Virus record (IMG/VR): IMGVR_UViG_3300033571_013691
Span: 1-26,020 of that record
DNA length: 26,020 bases
Strand: one strand, 5' to 3'
DNA from: a virus
Below, piece after piece: positions 996-25,277 of this stretch; the stretch's first letter is position 1; every line of letters starts with the position of its first letter. The notes under the pieces are model-generated. The model had not been told where the DNA came from, did not search any database, and saw only the letters and a list, made by a program, of their open reading frames with translations. The position numbers were made by a program, and so were the translations under genes.

Positions 996-3934
996 CTTAC
1001 TCCCGTCGACAACTGTACGCGCTTGGAGAGCCGCTTGGCGATGCCGTCACCCGAAAGGTTGGCGGCAAAGTTGTTTATGGCGGTGGCGGGGGCGGTGGAC
1101 CGTCCTCACAAACCATCACGCAGAGCAACATTCCTGATTGGTTGCGTCCGCAAGCCGAGACTGTTCTCGGTGGTGCGATGCAGGAGTTGTTCAATGTAAA
1201 GAAGGGTGAGGACGGCATTTATGATGTAACCGGCGTTAAGCCGTACGTCCCGTACAGCACCAACCCGGAGGACTACGTCGCCGGGTTTAGTCCCTTGCAA
1301 CAGCAAGCAATGGGTAGTGCTGCGGGGCTGCAGATGCCCGGTCAGTTTGGTGCTGCAACGCAGATGGCCGGTATGTCGGGGCTTGGAGGTCTTGGCACGG
1401 CGGGGCTTGCACAGGGTTATGCGGGGCAGCAGGCAGGCGCGGGTGCTGACTATGCGCGGATGGCGACTGATCCCTCCGCCATGCAGGCGTACATGTCGCC
1501 CTACATGCAGAATGTCGTCGACGTTCAGCAACAAGCGGCACAGCGACAGGCGGATATTGCCCGACAGACCTCACAGGCGCAGTTCGCTCGGGCTGGAGCT
1601 TTTGGCGGTGCACGGCACAACATTCAGCAGGCGCAAGCTGCTGCGGATCTAGCGCGGCAGAAGCAAGGTATCCAAGCCCAAGGGCTTCAGCAAGCCTTTG
1701 GCGAGGCGCAGAAAGCCCAGCAGTTTGGTGCCGGTCTGGGGCTACAAGGTTTGGCTGGCGCTCAGCAAGGTCTGCAAACGAGTCTCGGTGGCTACGGCCT
1801 GCTCGGCCAGCAAGCGGGGGTATTGGGCGGGTTGGGCGCACAGCAGCTTGGCGCACAGCGAGATATTATCGGTACGCAGGCACAGCTTGGTGGTCTGGAG
1901 CAGCAGCGTCAGCAAAGCATTATCAATCAAGCGATCAGCGATTACGCGCAATCGCAGCAGTATCCGCTGCAACAGTTCAACGCGTACAACGCGCTCTTGC
2001 GCGGGTATGCGGTTCCGGGTCAGACGGCTACGACGTATCAGGCGGCTCCGGGTCTGGCGCAACAAGTTGCAGGTCTTGGTCTTGGGGCGGCGGGTGTCTC
2101 CCAGCTCGTAAAGAAAAAAGGCGGCACGGTCAAGTCGATGGCCGAGGGTGGGTTTGCGGCAATCGACGACAAGGTTCGCAACAACCCGACCAAGTACTCG
2201 GAAGATCAGATCAAGCGGAGTACGGCCAATGAGATCATCGATCCCCAGACTGCTGCTATCGCTCTGGCTGAAATCGCTCGAGCCAAGAAAGCCGCTGCCG
2301 GTCTCAACGCACTCTCGTCCGGACTTCCGGCTCAGGGCTTTGCACCGGGCGGCATCGTAGCGTTTGAAGACGGCGGTAAAGTCGAGCGGTATCAGAATCA
2401 GGGGTTGGTTAAGACGCAAGAAGAAAACGATCGTGAGGCTTTGCTAGAGAGTCTTCGTCGTTTCGGGCTTGCGGGTAAAGATGTCTTGTCGGCACCTGTA
2501 CGTGGTGTGGCGGGGGCATTTGAGTCTGTAGTTACACGTCCTTTGCGCGCCTTGGGGGTGCCCGTCCCCTACCTACCAGACGCTTTTTATGGGGGTGATC
2601 GTAGCAGCTTGACGCCGTATATGGATGCCCTGCGACGCAAAGAACTTGAGAAAGCAGCGCCTAAACCTGCCACCCCACCCTCGGCTGCGCCTTCCGCCGC
2701 TGCTCCCTCGGCTGCGCCTCCCGCCGCCCCTTCTGCTCCGCGACAGGCTCCGCCAAGTACGGCCTCTTCCAGTCTTGAAGATATTTTAGCCCGCGTACAG
2801 GCTGCGCGAGATGAGTCACTCACGGCTGGCGACATTATGAAGTTGGTGGGGTTTGATTCTACTAAACAAGGTGTAGACGTCCAGAAAGGGCTGGCAGCGT
2901 TGGCTGCGCCTAACCTGCCTGAACTGACACCGGAAGCTGTGCGGACGATGCGGAAAGCCGTCATGCCGCAGGGCAGAGATGCGTACGAAAGCGAACTGAC
3001 GCCCGAGTACGCCGCCATGCGGGAGGCTGCTGAAAAAGCTGCCAGCGAGCAGCTTGAAGAGCGGAAAAGAATCTCTGATCGTCTGGATACCATGCGTGCA
3101 TCCCAAGAAGCACGCTACAAGGCCAAAGAGAAAGATCTCGAAACGGATCGTAGCCGCTCGGTTGGCATCGCGCTGCTCGAGGCCGCACAGGCCATGACGC
3201 AGCCGGGACAGACGTTCATGCAGGGACTTACCCGCAGCGCCGCTGCAGGCGGCAAGCGCTTGATGGCTGACAAAGAACGTCTTGATCAGCGGTCTGATGC
3301 GCTTACGGACGCGCTTGCCCGTCTCGATGAATCTCGCCTTGGCGATGCGAAGGAGCGTGCTGCGGCGAGGAACGAATACAATCAAGCGCTGCTTGGTGCT
3401 CGTAAATCGATGCTCGATCACATGCAGAGTAACTTGGGCCTGAACCGCAGCGAGGCCAATGCCACTCTCGATACCATTCTCAAACGTCAAGGTGATAGAG
3501 CTACACTTGAGCAAAGAACGGCGGAGGCACAGCAGCAATTCTTGCTGGGTGCGGAGCGTAATCGTCTGGCCGGTATGGGTGTGGGCATTCAAGCACTCAC
3601 GGCAGCAGACGCTGGAAGAAAGGCGGCTGGTGAGGGGGTCACGGATGCGATTCGTGCGCAGGCTGCGTTGACGACTGCGGAGAGACCGAATCCGCAGCTT
3701 GAGATCTATCAGGAAGCACTTAGGAATCCGAAACTCGCGGCGTTGCTCTCAAAGAACGACAAAGGCTTTTCGGAATTTACGGACTTCCTTAAAGCTAATC
3801 CGCAGTTGGCAATGCAGCCTCCTACCAAACAGCTAGAAGCATTTATGTTGGCAAAACAGATGGTCAATCCGACGGTATACTCGTCAGCACAACCACCGGC
3901 TAATGCCATCCCCTACACGCCCCCGGCGAGGTAA
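992..3934 (+). CDS. Predicted internal virion/DNA-ejection protein, Gln/Ala/Gly-rich, 980 aa
   Basis: The start is preceded by GAGG at 8-base spacing and overlaps the previous stop. Residues 28-35 are a poly-Gly run, followed by a segment containing IPDWLRPQAETVLGGAM. Residues about 100-380 form a Gln/Ala/Gly-rich helical region that includes YMSPYMQNVVDVQQQAA and QFARAGAFGGARHN. I have seen this pattern in large structural proteins of uncultured marine and freshwater phages. Near residues 452-461 lies GGIVAFEDGG, a motif recurrent in such proteins. A Pro/Ala-rich hinge follows at about 550-600, and then a long charged coiled-coil-like C-terminal half. There is no signal peptide or catalytic motif. 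Located just upstream of the giant gene, it may be co-packaged with that product and ejected with the DNA (inference). It is clearly coding, but its exact role is unassigned. Confidence 0.7.
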   Translation: MTYSRRQLYALGEPLGDAVTRKVGGKVVYGGGGGGGPSSQTITQSNIPDWLRPQAETVLGGAMQELFNVKKGEDGIYDVTGVKPYVPYSTNPEDYVAGFSPLQQQAMGSAAGLQMPGQFGAATQMAGMSGLGGLGTAGLAQGYAGQQAGAGADYARMATDPSAMQAYMSPYMQNVVDVQQQAAQRQADIARQTSQAQFARAGAFGGARHNIQQAQAAADLARQKQGIQAQGLQQAFGEAQKAQQFGAGLGLQGLAGAQQGLQTSLGGYGLLGQQAGVLGGLGAQQLGAQRDIIGTQAQLGGLEQQRQQSIINQAISDYAQSQQYPLQQFNAYNALLRGYAVPGQTATTYQAAPGLAQQVAGLGLGAAGVSQLVKKKGGTVKSMAEGGFAAIDDKVRNNPTKYSEDQIKRSTANEIIDPQTAAIALAEIARAKKAAAGLNALSSGLPAQGFAPGGIVAFEDGGKVERYQNQGLVKTQEENDREALLESLRRFGLAGKDVLSAPVRGVAGAFESVVTRPLRALGVPVPYLPDAFYGGDRSSLTPYMDALRRKELEKAAPKPATPPSAAPSAAAPSAAPPAAPSAPRQAPPSTASSSLEDILARVQAARDESLTAGDIMKLVGFDSTKQGVDVQKGLAALAAPNLPELTPEAVRTMRKAVMPQGRDAYESELTPEYAAMREAAEKAASEQLEERKRISDRLDTMRASQEARYKAKEKDLETDRSRSVGIALLEAAQAMTQPGQTFMQGLTRSAAAGGKRLMADKERLDQRSDALTDALARLDESRLGDAKERAAARNEYNQALLGARKSMLDHMQSNLGLNRSEANATLDTILKRQGDRATLEQRTAEAQQQFLLGAERNRLAGMGVGIQALTAADAGRKAAGEGVTDAIRAQAALTTAERPNPQLEIYQEALRNPKLAALLSKNDKGFSEFTDFLKANPQLAMQPPTKQLEAFMLAKQMVNPTVYSSAQPPANAIPYTPPAR

Positions 3935-3939
3935 TACGC

Positions 3940-6900
3940 ATGGCTCAGTATGTTCGTTTGCCCAGCGGGCGTTTTCTTGAGCTTGGTCCTGATGAATCGG
4001 CCCAGCAAGCGTTGATGCGGGGGATGCAGCAGCACCCTGCCGAGTTCAATCTTGAACCAGAAAAACAACCCCAAGGCGGCTTCGGCGCAGCGTTCAGCTC
4101 GGGGCTGTCTAGATTGGCCGGTGAGACCGGTCTAACGGCGGGTAAAGCGGGCATCGTTGATCTGGCAACGGCAGAAGAGTATTACCGTCAGCAGCAAGAG
4201 AAAGCGGCACGGATCTTCAAACCGACTGAGAAAGGCTGGACTGAAGATCCTCTGTTGAAGCTCAGAGAGGTGGCGGGTGGCTCCGCTGCCTACATGCTCG
4301 GCCCTCTTCTTGCGGGTGGTGCGGCGGCTTTTGCTCCCGTCTCTGTACCCGTTATTGGCGCGGCGGGCTTGGCAGCGGGGCTGACTTCGCTCGGTCAGTA
4401 CACCGGCTCGAACATCGCCGCGCAGATGGACGAAGGCAAGAAGCTGGCCGAAACCAGCGGTGCTCTCGCTGCTGCTACGGCGCTCCCTCAAGCAGCGCTT
4501 GACGTTCTCAGCTTCCGCATGATGCCGGGGATCAAAGCGATCTTTGGCGCAACGGGCAAAGAGATCACGGAGGCGCAAGCCAAGGCACTGGCTGAGCAGA
4601 CGCTCAAGCAAAAGATTGGGGACTACGCTGCCGCCACCGGCGTCTCAATGGGCGTCGAGGGTGCGACGGAAGTTGTGCAAGACTTCCTCGAGAAGGCGCA
4701 GGCCGGTGCCCAGTTGACCGATCCGAAAGCGCGGGCGGACTACCTCGAGAGCCTGATCGGTGGCGCAGCCCTTGCGGGTGTGCTCGGTCCGTTTGGTCGT
4801 GGCTTTGAGCGGCGGGGTATCGCGGCTGAGGGTAAGCGGCTTGAGCAGACGCGTCTTCAAGAAGAGGCTGCACAGCGAGAGAAAGAAAGACTGGCTGCGC
4901 TCGAGGAAGAGCGTGCGTTCAAGCTTACGCCCCCTGAAGGTTTGATCGGTCCGGAGGCACCTGCTGAGTTGCAGCAGCAAAGACTTCAGGCACGCCTTGC
5001 ACAGATCGAACAGGAAGTTCAGGTAGCGCGGCAGGCTCGCGACATAGACAAACTGCTGCAGTTGCAGCGTGAGCGGACGGCGCTGGAGGCACAAGTAGAA
5101 GAAGAAGTCTCGCCGTTTGATAAACGCCGCGATCTCGAAAAGCGTATTTCTGCACTCGAGAGCTTAGAAGTAAAGCTTCAGGAAAGAGCCGACGCTGCAA
5201 CGCTTGTTGGGCGACAGCCTATTTTGGCAAGTTTGACTTCTGTTCAGGAGCAGCTACGGACTGCCCGGAATGAGTTGGAGACGGGTGAGAAATCAGGCGC
5301 GTTGCCCAAAATTGAAAAGTCCGATGCGCCTTTGCTGAAGCGTGAACAAGCGGCGATCAAAGCTCTCCTCGCTGCCAGAGAAACAGGATCTGGAGCGGCG
5401 CAGGCGCTAGCGGCAGGGCGGCTCAATCAAATTGAAGAACAGCTTGGTCTCTTCGGCATGGAGTCGTTTGCTGCAAATGAGCGGTCTGCCGCCGAACAAA
5501 GACGCCGAGAGGAAGAAGCCGAGGCCGCTCGCCTTGCGGCTCAAAAGCCACTATTGCTGACCGATCAGCGCGGTGTTACGCCGATTGAGATGGGGGTCAA
5601 CACCGAGCTGTTCCCGACGGTGCCTTACAAGCCCGGTCCGTACACTCAAGAAACGCTCTTCGGACCTCCTGAGCGCGTCATGACGCCGTCTCGAACCGAG
5701 ATGACGCTTCCGCAGATTCAGTCGACGGTAGCGCAGATTAAAGAACGCGCCAATCTGTCGCCGCAAGACCAGATGATGTTGGCACGGCTCCGGCAAAAAG
5801 AGAATCTGACGCGCATCGAGCGAGCGCTCTTGACGAGGCTGGAAGAAAAAACGGCGCTGTCTCCGGAAGATCAGGCGCTGTTGGAGCGCATTGAGAACGT
5901 CGCCGTGCCTGCTCCCGGCGTTAACATTCCCGAGGCGCTGCAGACACGCTTGACGGCTTTGCAAGGTGTGCGACAGCGAATTGAACAGCAGTTGCTGCAA
6001 CGCGGTTCGCCCCTGCTGAGGGAAGAAGAAGAAGTTGCGCCTGCGGCAGAACCCGAGAAAGAAGCTGCTCCGGTTGAGACACCGCCTGTAAACACGCTAC
6101 CTGCTCCCAACGCGTTTAGGTACACGGTGTTGGAAAAACCGGCGTACGAAGGCGTTGAAGCCCTCAGTCGAGAAGACGCTGAATTTGAGCTTGAGGTACT
6201 GCTGCTAGAAGCAGAGCGTGGTCGGTTGACGCCAGAGTGGTTTAGCAGGTCGGTTATTGGGCGCATGTTGGACACCGCTCAAATGACGGAGGTTAACAGC
6301 AACATCCGCCAAGACCCGGTCGCGGCGGTACAGGGACTGATTGCTGCAATCAAACCTGCAGAAGCTAAACCTGCAGAAGCCAAACCCGCCGAGGCAGAAG
6401 CCAAACCCGCCGAGGCAGAAGCAAAGCCAGAACCCAAAGCCACGTACAAGTACATGCGGGACGAGTACGGGAATCTTGTTCCGATTCTCGTCGAATCCAA
6501 GAAGAAAGCTGCGCCGGTTGCCGAGACTGCAGCGGAAGCGGAAACTGAAACTGAAGCGGAAGCAGAAGCAGAAGCGGAAGTTGAGGAAGAGGAGCGTCTC
6601 TCTGACGCTGCCAAGCTCAGGATGCTTCGGCAGAAGGTTAAGGTGTCTCCTCGCGTTTTGAGCCTAGATCCGAGCGAGAGGAGCGAGGCCGATCTGACGG
6701 AAAGGCTGCAGCAAAGACTTCGACAAAACAGCACGCTGTCGTCGCTCTTCAACCGTCTAGATCGGCTCGACCAGATTGAGAAAGAACTGACGGAGAAGCT
6801 GCGCGGTGCGGACCGTAAGGCCGGGACGTTGCTCGAGAAACTGACCGGACGCGACGAGCAGAACGTCACACTTCGTCAACGCATCTCCGACTGGCTGAGC

Positions 6901-9900
6901 GACACCGCCCAAGGCCGTGGCAATGAAGAGTCTCGTCGTGCCCTTGAAGAAGCGCTGTTGCTGGTTGAACAGGGGCAGCGTGGTGAGAAGCAACCACTGA
7001 CTACGCTCAAGCGTCGTATCGCCACGCAGGAAGAGAGCAAACTGCTTGGCGGCAAGAAGACTGTTAGCGAGCGTGTCGAGACCGGAGAGGCTATTACCGC
7101 TCAACAACCGGAGCTGTTTGCCGATACTGAGGCGGCAAGTGCTGTTGAGTTTAAGACGCCGGAAGAAATGCAGGCGTTCATGGCGTCCAAAAAGCTGCAA
7201 AAAGAACGGTCAAAACAAGGAAAGCAGGCGCTTCGCGAAGCTCAAGAAGCAGGTCCGCCCCGCCCCGACGAACTGAAAAGAGCTCAGCAATTGCTGCGCC
7301 CGACGATTGCCTATCTTAATAAGCAGATTGTCGGATTGAAGAATGTTATAAAGCGCTTGACTGGGCGGGTTGACGACTACAACACGATGCTCCAAGTCCG
7401 TACAGAAGAACAAGAAGACGCGCTTATCAAAGCTAAGAAACAGTTGGCGGAGGTCATTCTTGCCATTTCTAAATCTTTGGCTAGTCAGCACCAGAAGTAT
7501 GCGCTCGCTAAACTAGAGCTAGACAACGCACAGAACGTCTACGCGGGTCTTGCCGATTTTAAGCAGTCTGTTGAAGACGCAATGGGGCAGGCGCTTGATC
7601 GCGTATCAGCTTTTGCGGGCTTTCAAACAAAAGTAAAAGAGCGCATCGAAAAAGATCTGGCAGAAAAACACAAAGCGTTTATCGCCGCTTTTGAAAAAGC
7701 GTTCCAGCTTCGAGAAAACATTGTCGATGTTGACTTTGGCGAGGCCCGAGACAAATATGTTTCGCCGCCTGATAAACGTCAAAAAATGACGGAGGCCGTC
7801 GATCCTTACCTCGAACTTTGGCCTGCGTACAATCGTGCGCTCAAAGAAGCACAGGATGCTTTCAAAGCAATACAAGACAGTCTTGAAGAAAATATTGGGC
7901 GTCCTTTAACGCCTTCGGAATTAGAGGTTATTTCTGACGAAGAGATCAGTAACTTTTTGGAGCAAGATGCCACACTGACCGAGATGCTTATCGGGCAACG
8001 GCGTACTGTGTACATGTACGAAAGGGAAGTTGCAGCCGCCAAAGAGGCATTGGACAGCGCTCGGCAGGATCAAGAAAAAGATCCCGTGTGGTCGGCGTTC
8101 TTGAAAGAAGCAGAAGCGGCGATTCAGGCAGCTACGGACATCCCAAAGAAAGACCTGCTTACAGAACCAGTTGCGCTTAAAAAAGCAATTGTCGCAGCGA
8201 ACAAGCAGATTAACAATTTGAAAGCGCAGCAGCGCGATAGGTCTATACAAGAACAGATCAGGCAGCTAGAAGAAGAAAAAGACAAAATTACGATGCGCAT
8301 TAAGGACTTTTCGCGGGAGTATTTGGCATCAAGCCTTAGACGTCTGCGACTGGTCCCGCTTACAAAAGCAGAAGCCGATGTGCTCGAGGAGAAAACTACC
8401 CCGCTTACAGAAGAAGAAAAAGCTGCACTTGAGGATTTTAGAAGTAAGCGTCGTTACGCTTCCGCATTTACACCAGAAGAACAAGCCGCGCTAGAAAACA
8501 AAACGACTACGCTGCAAGAGATTGCCGACAATCGTAGAGCCAGAATTGCCAGCATTGATCAGCAGATTAACGCGCTGCGTAAAGAACTGACAACCACGAC
8601 GCTTAGGGGCGAGCGACAGGCAAAAGCCGCGCAGGAACGTGCGGAGAAACAGGCAAAGACGCAAGCAGACATCCGTTCAGAGAATGAGCGTTTGCAACGT
8701 GCAGCGGCGGCTACTTTGCAGATTAGTGGCTTGACGCCTGAACAGCGTGAAGCTGTTAAGAAGGTACAAAAAGACATTGAGAGTTTGCTCGAAGCCAAAG
8801 CAGAGGCTATCGAGGCGAAGCAAAAGCAAACATCTAACTTTCGTCTTTCGGACGAACTGAAAAAAGACGTTGCCGCCAAACAAAAAGCCGTGCGTGCAGA
8901 AGCCGCTAAAAAGCTCAAGGCGGAAAAAGACGAAAACAAAAAAACCGCCATAAGGGAACAGGCTGCAAAAGATATAGCCAAAATAGCGGCGGATGCTAAA
9001 GAGCTTCAGCGTGCTGCCGACATCCAAAAGATTGAAGCCGCCTTTAAGCCGCAGATTGAGAAAGCCTTGGATAAGGTGCGGCTGTTTCGCGACGTGGCAC
9101 CGACGAAAACTTCGCAGCGTGAAGCGGATGAAGAAATCGATGCGATTGCGGAGACGCAAAGGTTGTCGCGCACCGGTCCGGTGTTGGTGGATGTTCGCAC
9201 TGGACGTGTCAGTGAGCCGGGTAAAGACGTAGACGACGCTGTTGCCAACGAGGCAAAAGAAAGAGCGTTAATGCTTCAGTTTTTGCTGGGAGAAGAAACA
9301 ACTAAAGTGCTCGGCAGACAACTTCGTCCGTCGGAGTTTGAAAATGATACGCTGGCTACGCTAAGGACTAAGGTTGAGAAGATTCGGAAACTGCAGCAAA
9401 AAGAAGTAGAGAAGGCTGCGGCACAAAGACTTACTCCGGAGCAAGCGGCAGAAGCGAGCCGTGTTGACACGCTGCAAAAAGCGTCTAACTACAAAGAAAA
9501 AATAGCGCAAATTAAAGCTAAGATTGATGCTGTAGCAAAAAAATACAAAGCAGATCTTGCAACTTTACGGCAAACCAAGTTTAAGCTGCCTTTAAGCGTG
9601 CGTGCAGATATAGCCGCTGACAAGTACACGGAAGAAGAGGCTTTTGCAGATACTCTAGCCAGAAAAGAAAGACTGTTGTTTGATATGTTTAATTCTGAAG
9701 TCGGCGGGCTTCAAAGAGAACTGGCTGCACTACTAAACAAAGAAGCTTTAGACCGCATCATCTCCCACGACTACGCCGCTCGAGAGAACACGCCGCTTGA
9801 TCAGACGACTGCTGCCGCCGTCGGCAAGGGCGACCTGAAGAGTGCGCTGGAATCGCTGGCTGAGAACGGCTCCACTCCGTTTGTCAGGATGGTCGCCAAG

Positions 9901-12900
9901 CAACTCTTGCCGATGGTAGAGAACACGACCCTCGAGACAGCTTCGCTCGAAGGCAAAGGCGGTGAGTTCGATCCGAACACCAACAACATCACGCTCAATG
10001 CTGACGCGCTGACGGAAGAGGATCTGCTGCATGAGGCAGCGCATGCGGCAACAAATGCGGTTGCCAGTTACGAAGCAAAAGAATTTGGGATGACGCGCAG
10101 GCAGTTCCTTCAAGGAGCTGGAGCCGTTTTGACTGCGGTAAAGCTGCCCGACATACCCGCTAACTTATCTCTTGCTGAGCAGGAGCGCATGTTCTTCAAC
10201 ATGTTGGATGCTTGGGGAAATTGGGTTAAAGCGGCGAAAAAACTTGCTCCTACGTTAGACCTTGATTCCTACACTTCTTTGGATGTAGCAGACCGTGATT
10301 TGCGCGGCTTTCTTGAGCAAATGGAATACAACGAAGTCAGTGACGCCGACGTTGTTGAGATGCTTCAAGATGGCGGTCTGAAGAAACTTCAGTCTGCGAT
10401 CAACGCTTCTCAACGCGCCATCATGTCCGAGGCGACAAAGCAAGGCGAAGGTAAACCGACGAAAGAAAAGTTCGTTCCGACCAAGGAACAGCTTGCTGCC
10501 CGTGACGCCCTCGAGAAGCTCTACGCCAAGATGCAGGAGCGCCCTGAGTTCAAGGACGAGTATGGCAACGTCAGCTTCAAGGAGTTTGTCTCCGAGTTGC
10601 TGTCGAACCAGCAGGTACGCGACAAGATCAACCAGACCGCTGGTCTGCTGCGCCGTATCTACGAAGGCTTTCTTCGTATGCTTGGGTTCAACCCAAAGAC
10701 CTTGTCCGACAAGGCTGTTGAGCAGGCGTTCGCCATGTTCAGCCCTAGCCAAGCCAGCGTTACCCCACAAGCGCGTCTTGCTTCCATTGCTCAAGCCACT
10801 GGTAAAAAGTTAAATCCCGTCACAGCAAACCTCTTTCATGGCTCCCCCAACGCGGACTTAACTTCTCTACAAGATTTTTCTTTCTTTACGCCTAATCAAA
10901 AAGTAGCCGAGCAGTACGCTAAAAAACAAGTCGCATTTACTGGCAGCACAACCGATACAGGGGGCAAAGTATATTCAGTATCGGTGTCAACAAATAACAC
11001 ACTTGATCTACGCATCCCAGAGCATCGAGCTGCTTATCAAGAAGCCCGCGCTAAATGGAACAAACAAAACCCTGACCCAGAAGATCAGCTACCTTCCTTG
11101 GGTAGTGAGGGGTTTGTTATGTCGACTACGGGTCTTCCCGGCTATGGGCGAATAGCCGCAGTCCTCAGAGCCATGCCCGAGTTTGATTCAGCTTACGTTG
11201 ACGAAGGTTCACAAGGCGTTTCTCTTGTTGTAAAAAAGGGGTCTGCTGCGCAGATCCTTAACCGGCAAGAGCGTCTTGCCTCAATCGCTCGAGGCGTCTT
11301 CCCCGGCACCGCAACAAAGTACTCCTCGGCAGTGCCCAAGGAAGTGCAGGACATGGTCAACCGGACCATCGCTCGCACTGCGACCCTTGGCGACAAGATC
11401 ACAGCCAACGCTACCGGCCTGCGGATGCGCACGTTCATTGCGGACAGTTGGGCACCTGTCGAAGCGCTCCTCAAGATGGGCGTTGCGAAAGACAAGATCA
11501 AAGAAGCCCAAGCGCTGCAGATGCGCGTCTACATGCGGCTCTTCAGCAACCAGCAGGAGTACACCAACGCCGCGCTGCTGAACGGTGTGCCGGAGTTGAA
11601 GACCGACACTGACGGCGTCCGAAACATTGAAGGCGGCGATGCCAGAGCCAACGCAAAGACCATCGCTGCGGCGCTCAGCAAAGCCAGCAAGCTCGGCAAT
11701 CAACAGGCTGTTGAGCGTCTCTTCACGATGTGGATGGCGTCTCTGCGTGCCAAGCAGGATGGCGTGGGCTTCGACAAGCTGAACTTTAAGAACCCGCCGA
11801 CAGCCGCCGAACTGACGGCGCTGGAGCAAATGTTCAAAGACAACCCGGACGTGAAGGACGCGTTCGAGGAAGCTCGCCGCCTCTACAAGGAGCACAACAA
11901 GCGCTTGCTGAACCTGCAGGTCCAGACTGGAGCCATGAGTAAGGAAGTGGCCGACGAGCTTGGCAAGGGCGACTACGTGGGCTACTACCGTGTGAACGAC
12001 AACGGCGTTGTCGAGTTGATGATGGGCGGGTCTCGCCCCATGCGGATCGGTAGCGTCGTGGATCAGCCGTACCTGAAAGAGCTTGTGGGGGGTGAGCAGC
12101 ACATCCTGCCGTTCTTCTCGAGCATGGTGCAGAACACGTCGATGCTGATGACCATCGCGCTGCGGAACGTGCAGAACGATGCGACGGCCAACATGTTTAA
12201 GAAGATGGAGTTGGGCGAGATCATCAAAGTGAAGGAAGGCAGCAAAGCCCCGGTCGGGAAGATCCACTTCAAACGTGACGGCGACGAGTACTGGTTCGAC
12301 GCTGACGCAGACGCCTTCGAGGCAGCGGGCATCCCCGCTGACCTGATGATGCAAGGTCTGCAGGGTGTGAAGACGACCATCCCCGGACTGGTACGGGCGC
12401 TGGCGGTGCCTGCGAACTTCCTTCGTAAAGCGGTACGGCGGCTCCCCACCTACACGCTTCGGCAGACGATCCGCGATCCGATGCACGCATGGATGGTTAC
12501 GGGCGGGAATTTCACGCCTGTGCTGAGCACTTGGAAGGAACTCTACAAGGGGATGACCAACACCAGTCAGACCCAGATGACGCTCAAAGAAGCTGCCGTC
12601 GTCGGCAACAACGTCTACTCCGGTGATACCGAAGGCGTCGCCGACATGCTGCGGCAGTTGTCGGGCAATCAAAGCCAGTTCGCGAAACGGATGATGCAGC
12701 TTGACGAGTTTGCGATGAAGGGCGAAGCGGCGACTCGGGCTGTGCTGTACGACACCTTCCGTCAGAAAGGCATGGGGCATGTCGAAGCGTTGCTGAACAC
12801 CGCTGAGACGATGAACTTCGGACGGCGTGGCACGAGCGCCAGCTTGCAGTGGCTGTCAATGCTGACGCCCTTCTTCAACGCTCAGATCCAAGGTCTGGAT

Positions 12901-13902
12901 TCGGTGTACCGCTCGCTCAAGGGCGACAACACATTCGAGCAGAAGATGAACGCTCGGAACATGCTGCTCAAGCGCGGGGCGCTTCTCGCTGCCAGCACCA
13001 TGATGTACGCGCTGATGATGGAGGACGATGAGGCGTACAAGAACGCCACGCCTGCTGAGCGCTACGGCAACTGGTTTGTGCCGGTACCCGGTACGGACAA
13101 GACGATTCGTGTTCCGATCCCGTTTGAGTTGGGCCTGATCTTCAAGTCGATGCCCGAGGCGTTCGTCAACACGGCGTTTGGCGATACCAAAGCTAAAGAG
13201 GCGATCAAAGCGCTGGCGAAACAGGCGTACATGTCGTCTCCAGTTGGACATTCCCAAAGTATTCCGACGGCGGTCAAAGGCCCGCTCGAGCTTGCGTTCA
13301 ACTACAACATGTTCAGCGATCAGCCAGTCGAGACCGCTCGAGAGCGGGCGATGGACGCCGACGAGCGCTACCGTGAGAGCACCACGGAGGTTGCGAAGCT
13401 GCTCGGAAAGTTTGGTGTCCTGTCGCCTGTGCAGATCGACCACTTGGTGCGGAGCTACACGAGCAGTGCCGGTATCGCCCTGCTGTCGATGGCGAACTTC
13501 GCGCTGCGTCCGCTGACGACTCGCGAAGGTGTAGAGAAACCTGACTGGGTGCTCGAGGAGGTGCCGGTCATCGGCCCGCTGTTCCAGCCCAAGACCGGAC
13601 GCGGTATGGTCAATGCGGCCTTCGAGGACATGATGCGCATCGAGCGAGCGGCGCAGACCTATAAGACCTTGGCGGGATCGGATCCTGAAGCGGCTCGAGC
13701 CTACGCTGACGACTACGCCAAACAGATCTCTCTGGCACCGTTGGGTGGGCAGTTCCGCCAGCAGATGGGGGAGTTCGCCAAGTACAAGCGCATGGTGGCG
13801 ATGAATCCCAACCTGACCGCTGCTGAGAAGCGTGAGCAGATCGAGAAGATCAAGCAGCAGGAGATCCAGTACTCGACGATGCTGCGGAAGGTCGCGGCTT
13901 GA
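3940..13902 (+). CDS. Giant mosaic polyvalent phage protein (zincin-like, ART-like and LPD38-like parts), 3320 aa
   Basis: GAGG lies 8 bases before the ATG, five bases after the previous stop. Residues 110-155 and 265-285 are hydrophobic, Gly/Ala-rich and potentially membrane-active. About 290-1990 is mostly charged coiled coil with low-complexity KPAEA (about 805-833) and Glu/Ala tracts. A zincin-like HEAAH motif lies at H2031-H2035, with candidate third ligands E2215 or E2219 in EFVSELLSN. Between them is an insert with the Tat-like TRRQFLQGAGA (R2053, R2054). Residues 2298-2440 resemble polyvalent-protein ADP-ribosyltransferases: H2300-G-S, then FFTP at 2315-2318 and a C-terminal VVKKGSAAQIL. 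About 2460-3310 resembles large polyvalent protein domain LPD38 (for example MLTPFFNAQIQGLDSVYRSL and VPIPFELGLIF). By position and size it is probably packaged and ejected into the host. I see no RNA polymerase motifs. Domain calls are from pattern recognition. Confidence 0.8.
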   Translation: MAQYVRLPSGRFLELGPDESAQQALMRGMQQHPAEFNLEPEKQPQGGFGAAFSSGLSRLAGETGLTAGKAGIVDLATAEEYYRQQQEKAARIFKPTEKGWTEDPLLKLREVAGGSAAYMLGPLLAGGAAAFAPVSVPVIGAAGLAAGLTSLGQYTGSNIAAQMDEGKKLAETSGALAAATALPQAALDVLSFRMMPGIKAIFGATGKEITEAQAKALAEQTLKQKIGDYAAATGVSMGVEGATEVVQDFLEKAQAGAQLTDPKARADYLESLIGGAALAGVLGPFGRGFERRGIAAEGKRLEQTRLQEEAAQREKERLAALEEERAFKLTPPEGLIGPEAPAELQQQRLQARLAQIEQEVQVARQARDIDKLLQLQRERTALEAQVEEEVSPFDKRRDLEKRISALESLEVKLQERADAATLVGRQPILASLTSVQEQLRTARNELETGEKSGALPKIEKSDAPLLKREQAAIKALLAARETGSGAAQALAAGRLNQIEEQLGLFGMESFAANERSAAEQRRREEEAEAARLAAQKPLLLTDQRGVTPIEMGVNTELFPTVPYKPGPYTQETLFGPPERVMTPSRTEMTLPQIQSTVAQIKERANLSPQDQMMLARLRQKENLTRIERALLTRLEEKTALSPEDQALLERIENVAVPAPGVNIPEALQTRLTALQGVRQRIEQQLLQRGSPLLREEEEVAPAAEPEKEAAPVETPPVNTLPAPNAFRYTVLEKPAYEGVEALSREDAEFELEVLLLEAERGRLTPEWFSRSVIGRMLDTAQMTEVNSNIRQDPVAAVQGLIAAIKPAEAKPAEAKPAEAEAKPAEAEAKPEPKATYKYMRDEYGNLVPILVESKKKAAPVAETAAEAETETEAEAEAEAEVEEEERLSDAAKLRMLRQKVKVSPRVLSLDPSERSEADLTERLQQRLRQNSTLSSLFNRLDRLDQIEKELTEKLRGADRKAGTLLEKLTGRDEQNVTLRQRISDWLSDTAQGRGNEESRRALEEALLLVEQGQRGEKQPLTTLKRRIATQEESKLLGGKKTVSERVETGEAITAQQPELFADTEAASAVEFKTPEEMQAFMASKKLQKERSKQGKQALREAQEAGPPRPDELKRAQQLLRPTIAYLNKQIVGLKNVIKRLTGRVDDYNTMLQVRTEEQEDALIKAKKQLAEVILAISKSLASQHQKYALAKLELDNAQNVYAGLADFKQSVEDAMGQALDRVSAFAGFQTKVKERIEKDLAEKHKAFIAAFEKAFQLRENIVDVDFGEARDKYVSPPDKRQKMTEAVDPYLELWPAYNRALKEAQDAFKAIQDSLEENIGRPLTPSELEVISDEEISNFLEQDATLTEMLIGQRRTVYMYEREVAAAKEALDSARQDQEKDPVWSAFLKEAEAAIQAATDIPKKDLLTEPVALKKAIVAANKQINNLKAQQRDRSIQEQIRQLEEEKDKITMRIKDFSREYLASSLRRLRLVPLTKAEADVLEEKTTPLTEEEKAALEDFRSKRRYASAFTPEEQAALENKTTTLQEIADNRRARIASIDQQINALRKELTTTTLRGERQAKAAQERAEKQAKTQADIRSENERLQRAAAATLQISGLTPEQREAVKKVQKDIESLLEAKAEAIEAKQKQTSNFRLSDELKKDVAAKQKAVRAEAAKKLKAEKDENKKTAIREQAAKDIAKIAADAKELQRAADIQKIEAAFKPQIEKALDKVRLFRDVAPTKTSQREADEEIDAIAETQRLSRTGPVLVDVRTGRVSEPGKDVDDAVANEAKERALMLQFLLGEETTKVLGRQLRPSEFENDTLATLRTKVEKIRKLQQKEVEKAAAQRLTPEQAAEASRVDTLQKASNYKEKIAQIKAKIDAVAKKYKADLATLRQTKFKLPLSVRADIAADKYTEEEAFADTLARKERLLFDMFNSEVGGLQRELAALLNKEALDRIISHDYAARENTPLDQTTAAAVGKGDLKSALESLAENGSTPFVRMVAKQLLPMVENTTLETASLEGKGGEFDPNTNNITLNADALTEEDLLHEAAHAATNAVASYEAKEFGMTRRQFLQGAGAVLTAVKLPDIPANLSLAEQERMFFNMLDAWGNWVKAAKKLAPTLDLDSYTSLDVADRDLRGFLEQMEYNEVSDADVVEMLQDGGLKKLQSAINASQRAIMSEATKQGEGKPTKEKFVPTKEQLAARDALEKLYAKMQERPEFKDEYGNVSFKEFVSELLSNQQVRDKINQTAGLLRRIYEGFLRMLGFNPKTLSDKAVEQAFAMFSPSQASVTPQARLASIAQATGKKLNPVTANLFHGSPNADLTSLQDFSFFTPNQKVAEQYAKKQVAFTGSTTDTGGKVYSVSVSTNNTLDLRIPEHRAAYQEARAKWNKQNPDPEDQLPSLGSEGFVMSTTGLPGYGRIAAVLRAMPEFDSAYVDEGSQGVSLVVKKGSAAQILNRQERLASIARGVFPGTATKYSSAVPKEVQDMVNRTIARTATLGDKITANATGLRMRTFIADSWAPVEALLKMGVAKDKIKEAQALQMRVYMRLFSNQQEYTNAALLNGVPELKTDTDGVRNIEGGDARANAKTIAAALSKASKLGNQQAVERLFTMWMASLRAKQDGVGFDKLNFKNPPTAAELTALEQMFKDNPDVKDAFEEARRLYKEHNKRLLNLQVQTGAMSKEVADELGKGDYVGYYRVNDNGVVELMMGGSRPMRIGSVVDQPYLKELVGGEQHILPFFSSMVQNTSMLMTIALRNVQNDATANMFKKMELGEIIKVKEGSKAPVGKIHFKRDGDEYWFDADADAFEAAGIPADLMMQGLQGVKTTIPGLVRALAVPANFLRKAVRRLPTYTLRQTIRDPMHAWMVTGGNFTPVLSTWKELYKGMTNTSQTQMTLKEAAVVGNNVYSGDTEGVADMLRQLSGNQSQFAKRMMQLDEFAMKGEAATRAVLYDTFRQKGMGHVEALLNTAETMNFGRRGTSASLQWLSMLTPFFNAQIQGLDSVYRSLKGDNTFEQKMNARNMLLKRGALLAASTMMYALMMEDDEAYKNATPAERYGNWFVPVPGTDKTIRVPIPFELGLIFKSMPEAFVNTAFGDTKAKEAIKALAKQAYMSSPVGHSQSIPTAVKGPLELAFNYNMFSDQPVETARERAMDADERYRESTTEVAKLLGKFGVLSPVQIDHLVRSYTSSAGIALLSMANFALRPLTTREGVEKPDWVLEEVPVIGPLFQPKTGRGMVNAAFEDMMRIERAAQTYKTLAGSDPEAARAYADDYAKQISLAPLGGQFRQQMGEFAKYKRMVAMNPNLTAAEKREQIEKIKQQEIQYSTMLRKVAA
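6351..6438 (+). repeat. In-frame KPAEA/EAKPAEA short tandem repeats
   Basis: Imperfect 15- to 21-bp units encode repeated KPAEA and EAKPAEA within the giant gene. A second low-complexity tract of alternating Glu/Ala/Thr codons follows at about 6526-6594. These probably form flexible linkers between coiled-coil blocks and are prone to length change by slippage. Confidence 0.85.
10768..11295 (+). repeat. Direct repeats flanking the ART-like domain of the giant gene
   Basis: The 30-bp stretches at 10768-10797 and 11266-11295 match at 24 positions. They encode QARLASIAQA (residues 2277-2286) and QERLASIARG (2443-2452). They are 498 bp apart, exactly 166 codons, and enclose the ADP-ribosyltransferase-like segment. 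The layout fits an in-frame domain gained by recombination, or a duplicated linker. Confidence 0.75.
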
Positions 13903-14074
13903 TGTAGAACCATACGCCGACTTTGCCGCCCCGGATTCCGGGTGCGGCTTGGGCGTTGATGCGGTATGGGATCGCTGCGCGTAAGCCTAGCGCACGCACT
14001 TTCTCAAGGTCGAGACAGGGCACGAAGAAGCCCTGTCCCGCCTCAAGCTGGGTCCACGGAAACTTGACCTTCAT
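13850..14074 (-). CDS. Small phage protein of the FPW...GxxFFVP type, unknown function
   Basis: The chosen ATG at 14074 has AGAGAAGG six bases upstream; a TTG two codons earlier lacks such spacing. This gives 74 residues. The protein begins MKVKFPWTQLEAGQGFFVP and ends its conserved part with GGKVGVWFYIKP, followed by a Ser/Ala-rich tail. The pattern (F/Y-P-W/F, then G-x-x-F-x-V-P, then a terminal G-V-x-x-W) matches the 82-residue protein at 17538-17786, so the two may be related. The first 32 bases overlap the primase-helicase 3' end, and the last 53 bases lie antisense to the end of the giant gene. It is the last gene of the minus-strand module. The function is unknown and I do not propose one. 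Confidence 0.65.
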   Translation of the reverse strand: MKVKFPWTQLEAGQGFFVPCLDLEKVRALGLRAAIPYRINAQAAPGIRGGKVGVWFYIKPRPSAASSSTGSPAA

Positions 14075-17096: not shown

Positions 17097-17105
17097 GCCT
17101 GTCCT

Positions 17106-17255
17106 TTAACGTGCGGCGTCTACAAAGTTTTCCAGTCGTTTGGCAAGCTCCATGATCCACGCACGCGCCCACTCTGGAACTGTATCCATATCCAGTAGAT
17201 GTGCGTACTTGACCAATTCGTCGTTGCTCAGGTTCTGAGGTTGAATTCCGAACAT
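17106..17255 (-). CDS. Small phage protein, 49 aa, unknown function
   Basis: A short gene with ATG at 17255 and TAA at 17106-17108. It starts inside the last 28 bases of the HTH gene in another frame and ends nine bases before the primase-helicase start. GGGGGAAG precedes the ATG closely. The product reads MFGIQPQNLSNDELVKYAHL, then LDMDTVPEWARAWIMELAKR, then LENFVDAAR. This is a compact amphipathic helical protein whose LSNDEL...PEW...EL..RL layout resembles other tiny phage proteins. The good SD, tight overlap and sensible composition support it as real. No function can be read from it. Confidence 0.6.
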   Translation of the reverse strand: MFGIQPQNLSNDELVKYAHLLDMDTVPEWARAWIMELAKRLENFVDAAR

Positions 17256-22056: not shown

Positions 22057-24039
22057 CTACTGTTTGGCAAGACCATATCGACGGTGAACGCCACCGTCAG
22101 CGGCCAGAGGAATCCCCGGCAGGTATGAAGGCTCGAGCGTCATCTGCGCAAGCATCCATTCGTATGCAGTCTGCGCTTCTGCATCCGGCGCAACTGCAAT
22201 GCACTCGTCATGAACGGTACCGACTACGGGGTAGCGTTTTGCTATCCGTAGCATGCCGTCCGTCATCACAATGCGTGCGGTTCCTTGCACGACATTGTTC
22301 GTTATCTTTCCTGCGTACAGCTTGGTGGCGTCTGGACCGTACACCCACGATCTCCCACCGTCTGCTGTCTTTTCCTGACGCAGATTAGGATACCTGATAC
22401 TCATCCCGTTGGGAAGCACGATCTCTTCCTTCCTGAAAGTCAGGCACTTGTGGGTGTACTCCGCGCCCTCGACCAGACTGCGCTCGATCAGAGACGAGAA
22501 CAGCCCCCACAAGCCCGTCACCGGGTACGCGGTCTCTCGATACACGTCGATGATCTTCTTGGATGCGAGGCAGTGTTCGAGCAGTTCCGAGTCCGTACAG
22601 GTGTGGGGGATGTTCGCCATGCGCTCGCGGTTGTCTTCCCAATCAAGGAAGCGCTGCACATACGTGCCGTCTACGCCCAGCTTCTTCGCCACCGTCCTGT
22701 CGTACCGCACAGGTGGTGCACCGAGGAATCCTGTCAGAAGCTGTGCGGCGAATGACGACCAGCCCAACTGATACCCGCAGCCCAGCAACGCGGACTTTGC
22801 AGACTGCCGCAGTTCCGGATGGGTCTCCTTGGTCATCCCCGGCACGTTGAACATCCGAGCACCAAACTGTGCGTAGGGGTCACCCTTGGCTCTGAAGATG
22901 TCGAGCATGTCCTCGTAGTCCGCGAGCCATGCCAGCACTCGAGGCTCGATCTGGGACAGGTCAGCGACGATCAGTTGGTGTCCCTCCGGGGCCATGATCG
23001 CCTTACGCAGGAAGCTCCCACGCTTCAGGTTCTGCATGTTGATGGCGCTGCCCTTGCTGGCCGTCCACCGTCCGGTGGTGGCCCCGTAGTACGACAGCGG
23101 CACAGGCAGCGCACCGCGCTTGGCGATATCGAGGAACCGCTGCGCTCTCGTTCGCTCTGACGTCGACTTGACCCGCAGCCTCGCCTCGCACAGGAGCGAG
23201 ATGTCTTCCCGGTCACCGTTGAGCAGGGCTTGGAAGAGGGCGTCGTTCTTTGCCAGCGCCAGCGTCGGCTTGCCTGTGGTCTTGCTTGTCTTGATGGGCG
23301 GCTCGCAGCCCAGACCAGCCAGCAGGTTCGCAAACTGTGGGTTGCTCGCGAGTGCGGTCTCCTCTACACCCAGCCGTTCAAGCAATGCTTCTCTCGTCTC
23401 CTTCTCTTCAAAGATGGCGTCCACCAACATGTTCTGGTCAAGCTCCAACAGCGGACGGGTGTACATGCGCAGGGTCAGATCGATGAGGCGTAGCTCCTTG
23501 TTTGGATACCCCTTGATGAGTCGCTTGAAGATCTCCTCACAGAGCACCGTGTCGTGTGCACAGTACTCGGCCAGTTCCTGCTCAACCTCCTCGCTAAGCG
23601 AGTCCAACATACCGTTCGTGCTGTGCACGGCCTGTCCCTTGGGCGGCAGACCAAAGTCTGCGGCGAGCTTCGCGAGGCTGTTGCCCACCTCGACACCGCG
23701 CAGTGCCCTCGCCATCGACAACGTGTCGAAGATGAAGCACGGCTGCACGCCGTAGCGCCACGCGAGGATCGTCACATCGAACTGAGCGTTGTGTGCCAGC
23801 ACGGCGGTCGTCGACCAATCGATGCTGTTTGCCCAGCCTTGGATCTCGTCGCCGCTTACCCACTCGGGGGCACCATCGGCCCCCGCAACTTTCCAACACA
23901 ACCCCCACGCCTTGAAGCGCGGGTCACGCACATACTCTTCGGTTGTCATGGATGAAAGCGTGTAGGTCTTCTTGCACCACGCCGTCTCGAAGTCGATGGC
24001 AAGTATGCGGTCAAAAGGGGGTCTAGTTGTAGTGCCCAT
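22057..24039 (-). CDS. Family A DNA polymerase with 3'-5' exonuclease
   Basis: I chose the ATG at 24039 (660 residues). An open frame continues upstream to 24222, but that stretch is the coding region of the preceding 97-residue gene and is not polymerase-like. The DEDDy exonuclease is intact: D16/E18 in AIDFETA, D88 in HNAQFD, and Y159/D163 in YCAHD. The polymerase motifs are intact too. Motif A is VADLSQIEPR (D360), motif B is RQSAKSALLGCGYQLGW (R411, K415) and motif C is VHDE (H610-E612). The length is typical of phage enzymes lacking a 5' nuclease domain. It is the replicative polymerase, working with the primase-helicase and the ssDNA-binding protein encoded downstream. It overlaps the previous gene by 17 bases. 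Confidence 0.95.
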   Translation of the reverse strand: MGTTTRPPFDRILAIDFETAWCKKTYTLSSMTTEEYVRDPRFKAWGLCWKVAGADGAPEWVSGDEIQGWANSIDWSTTAVLAHNAQFDVTILAWRYGVQPCFIFDTLSMARALRGVEVGNSLAKLAADFGLPPKGQAVHSTNGMLDSLSEEVEQELAEYCAHDTVLCEEIFKRLIKGYPNKELRLIDLTLRMYTRPLLELDQNMLVDAIFEEKETREALLERLGVEETALASNPQFANLLAGLGCEPPIKTSKTTGKPTLALAKNDALFQALLNGDREDISLLCEARLRVKSTSERTRAQRFLDIAKRGALPVPLSYYGATTGRWTASKGSAINMQNLKRGSFLRKAIMAPEGHQLIVADLSQIEPRVLAWLADYEDMLDIFRAKGDPYAQFGARMFNVPGMTKETHPELRQSAKSALLGCGYQLGWSSFAAQLLTGFLGAPPVRYDRTVAKKLGVDGTYVQRFLDWEDNRERMANIPHTCTDSELLEHCLASKKIIDVYRETAYPVTGLWGLFSSLIERSLVEGAEYTHKCLTFRKEEIVLPNGMSIRYPNLRQEKTADGGRSWVYGPDATKLYAGKITNNVVQGTARIVMTDGMLRIAKRYPVVGTVHDECIAVAPDAEAQTAYEWMLAQMTLEPSYLPGIPLAADGGVHRRYGLAKQ

Positions 24040-24316
24040 GCAGGGGTGCCTCGGCTTGGATGTGTTCGGCCAATTGACTGGATGCTTTGTCGAGCGCGAT
24101 GTACGCGTCGTCAAGGTCGAGATTGAACGAGTGGATGTGCAGTTCCCAAGCGTCTTCATCTGCGGCGGGTGTACGCACGACCAAGACAGCGCCGATGTTG
24201 GAATCGTCTTTGGAGCAGGCAATCAGCATGCGCACGGTCTCGAACAACACTCGTGCGTTGCGACCCTCGATCTGTTTCAGTTGATTTATGAACTCACGAA
24301 CCTCTTCAATATCCAT
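24023..24316 (-). CDS. Small acidic phage protein, unknown function
   Basis: This 97-residue protein has GGAG seven bases before its ATG. It overlaps the VRR-NUC gene by 11 bases upstream and the polymerase gene by 17 downstream. The sequence is acidic and alternates helices and strands: MDIEEVREFINQLKQIEGR, then IGAVLVVRTPAADEDAWELH, then DDAYIALDKASSQLAEHIQ. I see no catalytic motif, Cys cluster or membrane segment and do not recognise the family. The strong SD and coupled overlaps on both sides make it a real gene, probably made in step with the polymerase. Confidence 0.68.
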   Translation of the reverse strand: MDIEEVREFINQLKQIEGRNARVLFETVRMLIACSKDDSNIGAVLVVRTPAADEDAWELHIHSFNLDLDDAYIALDKASSQLAEHIQAEAPLHGHYN

Positions 24317-24593
24317 CTAACATCTCCTTCAGTTGGTCAAGGTTGTGCTCGTTCACGACGAGCGAGGTGCCGCCTGCGTTGCGGATGTCTTGCAGATGCT
24401 TCTCTTGCAGCGCAGTGGTTGTGCCCTTGCCTGCCTTGGCTTCGATGCCGATGAAGTGGCCGTTGTGGCAGACAAGGAAGTCGGGGACACCGCTGTTGCC
24501 GTAGCCGGTGCCGATGGGCATGGCGTAGTAGGCGCGTGTGGTGTCGAGGATTTTGCGGATCTGTTTCTTGACCCGCGCTTCTGGCGTCATCAT
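24306..24593 (-). CDS. VRR-NUC domain nuclease
   Basis: This 95-residue protein has AGGA seven bases before the ATG. It is a single VRR-NUC domain of the PD-(D/E)XK superfamily. GNSGVPDFLVC carries D38, and FIGIEAKAGKG carries E51-x-K53. The following TTALQEKHLQDIRNAGGTSLVV is the usual Gln-containing helix and last strand. Stand-alone phage VRR-NUC proteins are thought to cut branched DNA, such as Holliday junctions or flaps. The active-site residues look complete. It is the first gene after the structured intergenic stretch at 24632-24758 and overlaps the next gene by 11 bases. Confidence 0.88.
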   Translation of the reverse strand: MMTPEARVKKQIRKILDTTRAYYAMPIGTGYGNSGVPDFLVCHNGHFIGIEAKAGKGTTTALQEKHLQDIRNAGGTSLVVNEHNLDQLKEMLDGY

Positions 24594-24631
24594 GTACGAG
24601 TCCTGTGCTGTAGGGGTGGGTAGGGGGGAGA

Positions 24632-24758
24632 TGTAGATTCCGCGCCCCCCTGCTTCGCGGTGAGGAGATACGGCACGCCTGAAACGCTAACGTGCCGTAC
24701 GACAGAGGCCCACATCTACAAGGCGGGAGCCCCCTGCCGGTACATGCCCTGCGGGCAT
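24632..24758 (-). other. Multi-stem structured intergenic element, possible RNA
   Basis: The gap of about 160 bp between the DUF3310 gene and the VRR-NUC gene holds no gene but has dense inverted repeats. A closing stem pairs TGTAGAT (24632-24638) with ATCTACA (24714-24720). Inside it are CCGCG/CGCGG (24640-24644 with 24656-24660) and TACGGCACG/CGTGCCGTA (24669-24677 with 24691-24699, loop of 13). This makes a three-way junction. Two further hairpins follow: GGCGGG with CCC-T-GCC (24722-24738) and ATGCCC-TGC-GGGCAT (24744-24758), the latter touching the stop codon of the upstream gene. Transcription is probably on the minus strand with the operon. It could be a leader, processing or attenuation element, or a replication-related DNA structure. 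Confidence 0.5.
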
Positions 24759-25054
24759 TAACTTGGTTCAGACAATACTTCGATCAGCTTCTGAAGATAG
24801 TGAGACGCTTTCTGGATCTCTTGAAGAGACATGTCCTTCGCACCCATACGCATCACATACTTTAGCGCATTCCCACGGTAGAAGCCGATCCTTTGTTCAC
24901 GAGGCCATGTGTCAACGACGTCCCACGGCTCGACCCCCATCGACAGGTAGTGCGCACCGCCGATCTGTACATCACGAGCTGATGGTTGCTGCACGTTTTT
25001 TCTCCAGATATCGCCGATTGATTTCAGCTCGTTCAGTTTTTCTTCGAGGCTCAT
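24758..25054 (-). CDS. DUF3310-type phage protein
   Basis: I chose the ATG at 25054 (98 residues) because GGGAG precedes it. The frame continues to an ATG at 25126, but that segment has no SD and lies over the winged-helix gene. The core is the DUF3310 signature: VQIGGAHYLSMGVEPWDVV (about 29-47), GFYRGNALKYVMRMGAKD (57-74), and a final helix EIQKASHYLQKLIEVL. This family is widespread in phages, often near nucleotide or replication genes, and has no settled function. It overlaps the previous gene by 83 bases. The stop codon sits in a small hairpin at the edge of the structured intergenic element. Confidence 0.85.
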   Translation of the reverse strand: MSLEEKLNELKSIGDIWRKNVQQPSARDVQIGGAHYLSMGVEPWDVVDTWPREQRIGFYRGNALKYVMRMGAKDMSLQEIQKASHYLQKLIEVLSEPS

Positions 25055-25277
25055 CTTCACGTTCTCCCAGACTGTATACAGGTATGCTGTCTCGCCCAAG
25101 ACTGTCGGGTAACCACTGACACACATGGATTGTCTTGTTTCGTTTCAGTTCGCGTAACCATGCCTGTGCGGTGATGAGATGAATGCCGATGTCGTAGGAC
25201 AGCACGGCTGCGGTAACCGGACCTTTCTGTAGTGCCACTAGTGTTCGAGCAAGTTTGCTCGCGTTGATCTTTCTCAC
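24972..25277 (-). CDS. Small winged-helix DNA-binding-like protein
   Basis: This 101-residue protein starts with GTG at 25277, sharing GTGA with the previous stop and preceded by GGAGGT at nine-base spacing. Residues about 5-50 form a winged-helix region (KLARTLVALQKGPVTAAVLS then the recognition helix LITAQAWLRELKRNKTI). A phage-type extension follows: IHVCQWLPDSLGRDSIPVYS leading to LGEREDEPRR and a basic NRRYLEKKRA tail. The extension HI-x-x-W...PVY-x-x-G also occurs in the protein at 25550-26020. A transcriptional or replication regulator is plausible, with the target unknown. Confidence 0.7.
   Translation of the reverse strand: MRKINASKLARTLVALQKGPVTAAVLSYDIGIHLITAQAWLRELKRNKTIHVCQWLPDSLGRDSIPVYSLGEREDEPRRKTERAEINRRYLEKKRAATISS

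Follow-up and report, generated by a model that had tools for sequence, protein, structure and literature searches.

A candidate RNA family with an interlocked, pseudoknotted fold upstream of replication genes in uncultured phages

Introduction

In bacteriophage T4, a pseudoknot (gp32) and a hairpin (gp43) lie 67 nucleotides (nt) and about 40 nt, respectively, upstream of their own start codons (PMC3014915). Both operators are small single elements that serve one gene each, with a fixed tie to the start of the gene that they regulate. Flaviviruses carry exonuclease-resistant RNAs (xrRNAs), in which a 5' segment is paired with a junction and the loop of the junction's last hairpin forms a pseudoknot with bases directly 3' of the closing stem; these RNAs also halt the bacterial RNase J1 (PMC5760640; PMC8571300; PMC13161572). 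The known xrRNAs sit in 3' untranslated regions and leave a noncoding product. The orphan RNA motifs of metagenomes (e.g., PMC2864571) are conserved structured RNAs of no assigned function that were recognized by covariation.

Here, we describe an RNA element from an uncultured phage. The window, i.e., the whole stretch of DNA that was analyzed, is a single record of 26,020 bases (IMG/VR phage contig IMGVR_UViG_3300033571_013691). Like the T4 gene 32 and gene 43 operators (PMC3014915), the element is a folded part of the leader in an mRNA of phage replication genes, but it has up to three pseudoknots, and the gene that follows it varies. It shares with the metagenome orphan motifs a conserved structure recognized by covariation, whereas it is without a match in Rfam 15 and was found only in uncultured phages. 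The HRIMA motifs, almost all of which are reported to be exclusive to metatranscriptomes, were set aside as an identity for the element on that ground (PMC10085705).

Results

Location of the element

The element lies on the minus strand, which is the gene strand, in the gap at positions 24594 to 24757 between a DUF3310 gene and a VRR-NUC gene. The surrounding features are as follows.

24758 to 25126, minus strand: DUF3310 protein gene, 122 amino acids (Pfam PF11753, E = 7e-11), the 5' neighbor of the RNA
24594 to 24622, minus strand: leader from the RNA to the VRR-NUC start codon, with AGGA inside
24306 to 24593, minus strand: VRR-NUC-type nuclease gene, 95 amino acids (PHROG 93, endonuclease, E = 9e-16), the 3' neighbor of the RNA
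24023 to 24316: small open reading frame (ORF) between the polymerase and VRR-NUC genes
22057 to 24042, minus strand: family A DNA polymerase (PolA; PF00476, E = 6e-23), in the same gene cluster as VRR-NUC

The stop codon of the DUF3310 gene (24758 to 24760) abuts the element. No Pfam match at 0.001 was found for the 95-amino-acid VRR-NUC-type protein. In the window, a consensus scan detected neither a sigma-70-like promoter in the surroundings of the element nor any gene-strand site that resembles a terminator. An earlier note on this DNA, made from the sequence alone, had described the stretch as the only sizeable noncoding gap of its module, which is roughly right in that long gaps elsewhere in the module contain small ORFs that have PHROG matches, although gaps of about 130 to 140 nt also exist at 13903 to 14042 and 17097 to 17227. 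The window also contains, on its plus strand, an open frame of 3,320 amino acids (3940 to 13902) that adjoins a DNA-ejection-protein-like gene (992 to 3934; PHROG 4287).

All of the inverted repeats reported in that note are present. Read along the plus strand, they comprise a perfect 9-bp repeat (24669 to 24677 and 24691 to 24699), a putative closing stem (TGTAGAT at 24632 to 24638 and ATCTACA at 24714 to 24720), CCGCG (24640 to 24644) with CGCGG (24656 to 24660), and ATGCCC (24744 to 24749) with GGGCAT (24753 to 24758). The G-rich run at 24610 to 24629 is likewise real and corresponds on the transcript to a C-run plus the leader. On the gene strand, and with helix names from the comparison with relatives below, the parts of the window's RNA are as follows.

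24744 to 24758, minus strand: small hairpin ATGCCC-GCA-GGGCAT (RNA sense) at the 5' end of the element
24731 to 24739, minus strand: P1 5' strand CGGCAGGGG, which pairs with 24700 to 24708 and covaries in relatives
24714 to 24720, minus strand: PK1 5' strand TGTAGAT, inside the P1 loop, with pair changes in relatives
24700 to 24708, minus strand: P1 3' strand CCTCTGTCG
24691 to 24699, minus strand: P2 5' strand TACGGCACG, of a perfect 9-bp stem
24669 to 24677, minus strand: P2 3' strand CGTGCCGTA
24656 to 24660, minus strand: P3 5' strand CCGCG, which covaries (CCGCG/CCACG/CTGCG/GCACG/ACACG)
24645 to 24650, minus strand: PK2 5' strand, the G-run in the P3 loop, which pairs with the C-run
24640 to 24644, minus strand: P3 3' strand CGCGG, after which comes a single invariant A (24639)
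24632 to 24638, minus strand: PK1 3' strand ATCTACA
24623 to 24628, minus strand: PK2 3' strand CCCCCC (the C-run)

The nested folding energy of the 167 bases alone was ordinary (z = -0.7 for the plus strand and -0.4 for the minus strand). This energy is not significant because nested minimum-energy folding is blind to pseudoknots, and a comparison with relatives was therefore needed.

Relatives in uncultured phages

Relatives were sought in viral contigs by way of VRR-NUC and of DUF3310 and then by a core pattern, GGGGGCGYGGAATMTACNNNNCCCCC, which yielded 107 stretches; a relaxed form of the pattern was searched too. The element is present in more than 100 uncultured phage contigs, with 97 distinct full-core copies that fall into 55 k-mer clusters, plus two divergent lineages; the clusters are k-mer groups without a tree, and their counts are not counts of independent events. 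The search patterns demanded the core, so that divergent copies are undersampled and part of the conservation seen in PK1 and PK2 stems from the search itself. The element is 135 to 162 nt long in relatives (median, 147 nt), and the start codon usually lies 15 to 48 nt beyond its end. On the gene strand, the features common to the relatives are the P1 stem, with GTAKAT (in two clusters GTAAAT) in the loop; the P2 hairpin, which varies; P3, whose loop carries a G-run; a single A; ATMTAC; 2 to 4 bases; and the C-run. In one group (L170, L180, L207, L238, L263, L278, L281, and L282), GTATAT stands against ATCTAC or ATTTAC, with one mismatch in the middle of PK1 that is tolerated in several contigs.

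Against a covariance model built on PK1 and P3 only (R1), of which it was itself a part, the window reached 81.8 bits (E = 1e-17). Among 99 other loci without a pattern match, the sole R1 match was L052, which is the same contig as the divergent lineage L293; in another set of 36 loci, which included many known carriers, 28 had scores above 50 bits. Rfam 15 gave no match at the gathering score for the window or 11 relatives, and in permissive searches with the window and relatives, the best matches were at chance level. A DNA search of phage isolates, in a collection with one genome per species, did not find the element, and an R1 scan around seven of the nearest isolates by VRR-NUC or PolA gave no match. 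The nearest isolates infect Rhizobium and Pseudomonas. In prokaryote genome contigs, the fixed pattern gave two chance matches, neither of which was recovered by R1; one of them, L260, was rejected since the partner strand of PK1 is missing. No described phage RNA of a comparable kind was found in open-access main texts. As judged by Rfam 15 and these texts only, the RNA family was previously uncatalogued.

Two isolates yielded separate observations. Pseudomonas phage Rollin (L284) encodes, at 4001 to 4273, a VRR-NUC relative of 41.8% identity that is unannotated in the record. Rhizobium phage RHph_TM3_14A (L289) has a 400-nt gap (3453 to 3853) behind a metallopeptidase-domain gene, with PolA downstream, which holds GATGGGGGT and ACCCCCAT about 75 nt apart; R1 gave no convincing match to this gap, nothing in Rfam matched it, and ARAGORN found no tRNA, and it may hold a further structured RNA at a comparable location.

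Fold and covariation

Comparison of the relatives predicts, with little room for doubt, that the element is a three-way junction formed by the PK1 helix, P2, and P3 and locked by three pseudoknots, Pa, PK1, and PK2. In PK1, the P1 loop pairs with the strand behind P3. In PK2 (5 to 7 bp), the G-run of the P3 loop pairs with the C-run 2 to 4 nt past the junction. In Pa (6 to 15 bp; 50 of the 55 clusters), a strand near the stop codon of the upstream gene pairs with the P2 loop, usually directly beside P2 (a gap of 0 in 35 of the 50). No convincing Pa was found in the window subgroup (the window, L004, L006, L010, and L011). The small hairpin at 24744 to 24758 occupies the position that the Pa 5' strand has in other phages, and in the window-type group (L002 and L011), its sequence varies while its pairing is kept. 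The three-way junction proposed earlier for the window thus stands as a conserved core, but its supposed closing stem really joins the P1 loop to the downstream strand (PK1). A hairpin proposed at 24722 to 24739 is present but weaker, and it is not conserved; its bases belong to P1.

Compensatory changes were found in all six helices. Across the 19 pairs of PK1, P3, and PK2 in 57 sequences (the 55 clusters plus L293 and L294), 96.3% were standard pairs, two-sided changes were seen at 10 pairs (mean of 5.5 in shuffles) and in 85 cells (25.5 expected in shuffles), and the covariation score was 0.234 (0.089 in shuffles). None of 500 shuffles reached the observed value on any of these measures, and when the pairing was slid by 1 to 3 columns, two-sided changes appeared in at most 4 pairs and 10 cells. 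The outer pair of PK1 was U-A in 29 sequences, A-U in 17, and G-C in 6; its inner variable pair, the fifth of seven, was G-C in 45, U-A in 9, and A-U in 2; and columns 100 and 118 of P3 were G-C in 38 and A-U in 16. PK2 was compensatorily and independently rewritten in two lineages, L293 (GGCGGG/CCCGCC) and L294 (GTCGGG/CCCGAC), which were recovered by R1 and by a targeted pattern; a pattern search for a third PK2 variant found none.

Pa, P1, and P2 were poorly column-aligned by MAFFT and were tested by comparing pairing with a cluster's own 3' strand and with those of other clusters. Pa was 100% paired within clusters and 47.5% across them (41 distinct strands in 49 clusters), P1 was 93% paired with its own strand and 44% across clusters, and P2 was 98% paired with its own strand and 47% across clusters (49 distinct 5' strands in 54 clusters); these helices had been placed to pair, and more weight belongs to a structure-blind version, in which the best-helix scores, own and cross, were 22.1 and 15.3 for Pa, 17.5 and 13.0 for P1, and 17.6 and 12.3 for P2. 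Covariation across homologues had been named beforehand as one half of a test that could refute the finding; the finding survived this half, and covariation in numerous lineages lends strong support to a structured RNA in this gap.

Only about two unpaired positions are invariant, a C three bases before GTAKAT and the A between P3 and PK1. A mechanical scaffold would be expected to have so few invariant unpaired bases, and a ligand pocket or an active site less so. A self-cleaving ribozyme that cuts the polycistronic transcript ahead of the replication genes would suit the pseudoknotted junction fold and would make the identity of the next gene immaterial, but the scarcity of invariant unpaired nucleotides and the lack of any match to an Rfam ribozyme make it improbable.

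Functional strand

G.U outnumbered A.C by 33 to 3 in the helices, with both scored as mismatches and the placement favoring neither. The molecule under selection is therefore the gene-strand (minus) RNA, and this RNA is the functional molecule. The replication or packaging signal suggested earlier is disfavored, in the form of a signal in double-stranded DNA, by the excess of G.U over A.C. A replication-origin or primer RNA or a packaging signal would agree with the location in the replication module, but the G.U excess and the gene-strand polarity fit mRNA and the place of the element within the operon changes, which leaves this reading very improbable.

Genomic context

Of the 52 clusters with enough downstream sequence, 51 have VRR-NUC downstream of the element and on its strand, which speaks for a role in cis in the mRNA. 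It is the immediately next gene in 31 of those clusters and otherwise lies 0.2 to 2.8 kb away, with PolA near. The next gene may be VRR-NUC, PolA (L162 and L242), a metallopeptidase-like gene (L186), a small ORF, or an HNH-type gene; in L010 and L214, by reading of the sequence, HNH-type endonuclease-like genes lie between VRR-NUC and an intact RNA. A switch specific to a single gene is therefore unlikely. Genes of the AAA ATPase and DUF2201-type metallopeptidase families (e.g., in L186 and L219) were each found at 14 of the 55 RNA-bearing loci and at none of 30 VRR-NUC loci without the RNA; flank lengths differ between these sets, and that such genes accompany the RNA is only a hint.

The upstream stop codon falls inside Pa or at most 20 nt 5' of it in 38 of the 46 clusters with a readable upstream frame. 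A terminating ribosome would therefore reach Pa, although the closeness may be simple compaction. At the other end, no specific pairing was found between the leader (24594 to 24622) and the element, and pairing of the element with the ribosome-binding site scored 9.72 for own and 9.77 for cross pairing. That the pyrimidine-rich J2/3 sequesters the ribosome-binding site was rejected, own pairing being equal to cross pairing. Regulation of VRR-NUC and polymerase synthesis, as proposed in the earlier note, is possible in that the element lies upstream of both genes on their strand, but it has to contend with the varying next gene and with ribosome-binding-site pairing no higher than in the cross control.

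These data bear on three readings. A leader of the replication operon that senses a ligand, such as a riboswitch, would account for the position ahead of genes, the complex fold, and the conserved core; the roughly two invariant unpaired positions, the variable downstream genes, the failure to find a pairing switch at the ribosome-binding site, and the lack of a terminator-like site on the gene strand make it unlikely. A noncoding RNA that is cut from the operon transcript and acts in trans (it might, for instance, titrate a host factor or serve the replication machinery) seems somewhat less unlikely. Its operon position varies while the RNA itself is conserved, and the fold is compact and self-contained, with three pseudoknots, but the element is tied to the VRR-NUC/PolA neighborhood in nearly all clusters, begins at the stop codon of the upstream gene, and has neither a sigma-70-like promoter nor a terminator of its own that could be found in the window. 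The third reading is a translational operator, to which a replication protein of the phage (the polymerase, VRR-NUC, or a single-strand binding protein) would bind to repress translation of the replication genes. It has a direct precedent in phage T4 gp32 and gp43 (PMC3014915), the end of the element mostly lies 15 to 48 nt ahead of a start codon, the genes behind it are replication genes, and the conserved sequence of PK1 and PK2 could be a protein footprint. The varying next gene, the HNH-type genes inserted behind the element, and the failure to find specific ribosome-binding-site pairing weigh against an operator, which we regard as doubtful but close behind the reading that we favor below.

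Discussion

The core of the element resembles xrRNAs of class 1 in topology, with the xrRNA side taken from papers; we claim neither homology nor class membership. Both have a three-way junction with a closing stem, here the PK1 helix, which by covariation closes P2 and P3, and both have a pseudoknot between a hairpin loop and a downstream strand (PK2, 5 to 7 bp here and 2 to 7 bp as reported there). The 5' end of class 1 xrRNAs forms 1 to 2 bp (their PK1) with the junction, and P1 of the phage element joins a 5' segment to a junction strand but is much longer, mostly 5 to 13 bp. The conserved J2/3 cytosine of class 1a has no counterpart in the phage element, in which no C between P2 and P3 is invariant. 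The phage element further differs by its additional pseudoknot Pa, its position 5' of genes, and the lack of an Rfam match.

Our leading guess, which is tentative and draws on this analogy, is that the element sits in cis within the polycistronic mRNA as a mechanical roadblock or a processing or stability element and works like an exonuclease-resistant RNA. RNA decay or processing coming from the upstream genes would halt at its 5' face, and the replication genes behind it would thereby keep a stable 5' end. We lean toward a roadblock because the core topology is common to exonuclease-resistant RNAs and because the element has no tie to a single gene, few invariant unpaired bases, and no specific pairing with the ribosome-binding site. 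Against a roadblock, the sequence of PK1 and PK2 is conserved beyond the needs of pairing, which a purely mechanical block leaves unexplained. The further proposal that bacterial viruses arrived, independently of the flaviviral xrRNAs, at an exonuclease-blocking RNA that would shield the replication part of a polycistronic mRNA by the same ring topology is more speculative still, and we would not expect it to hold.

The element represents a phage RNA family with a well-supported and unusually interlocked fold that is widespread in uncultured phages and missing from Rfam, and the covariation singles out the pairs for a disrupt-and-repair test. Among known viral pseudoknots, that of gene 32 may stand alone in autoregulating translation (PMC3014915), and a further pseudoknotted kind in the replication operons of phages would be of note. 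Should the core indeed stop exonucleases, bacterial viruses too would use mechanical RNA roadblocks.
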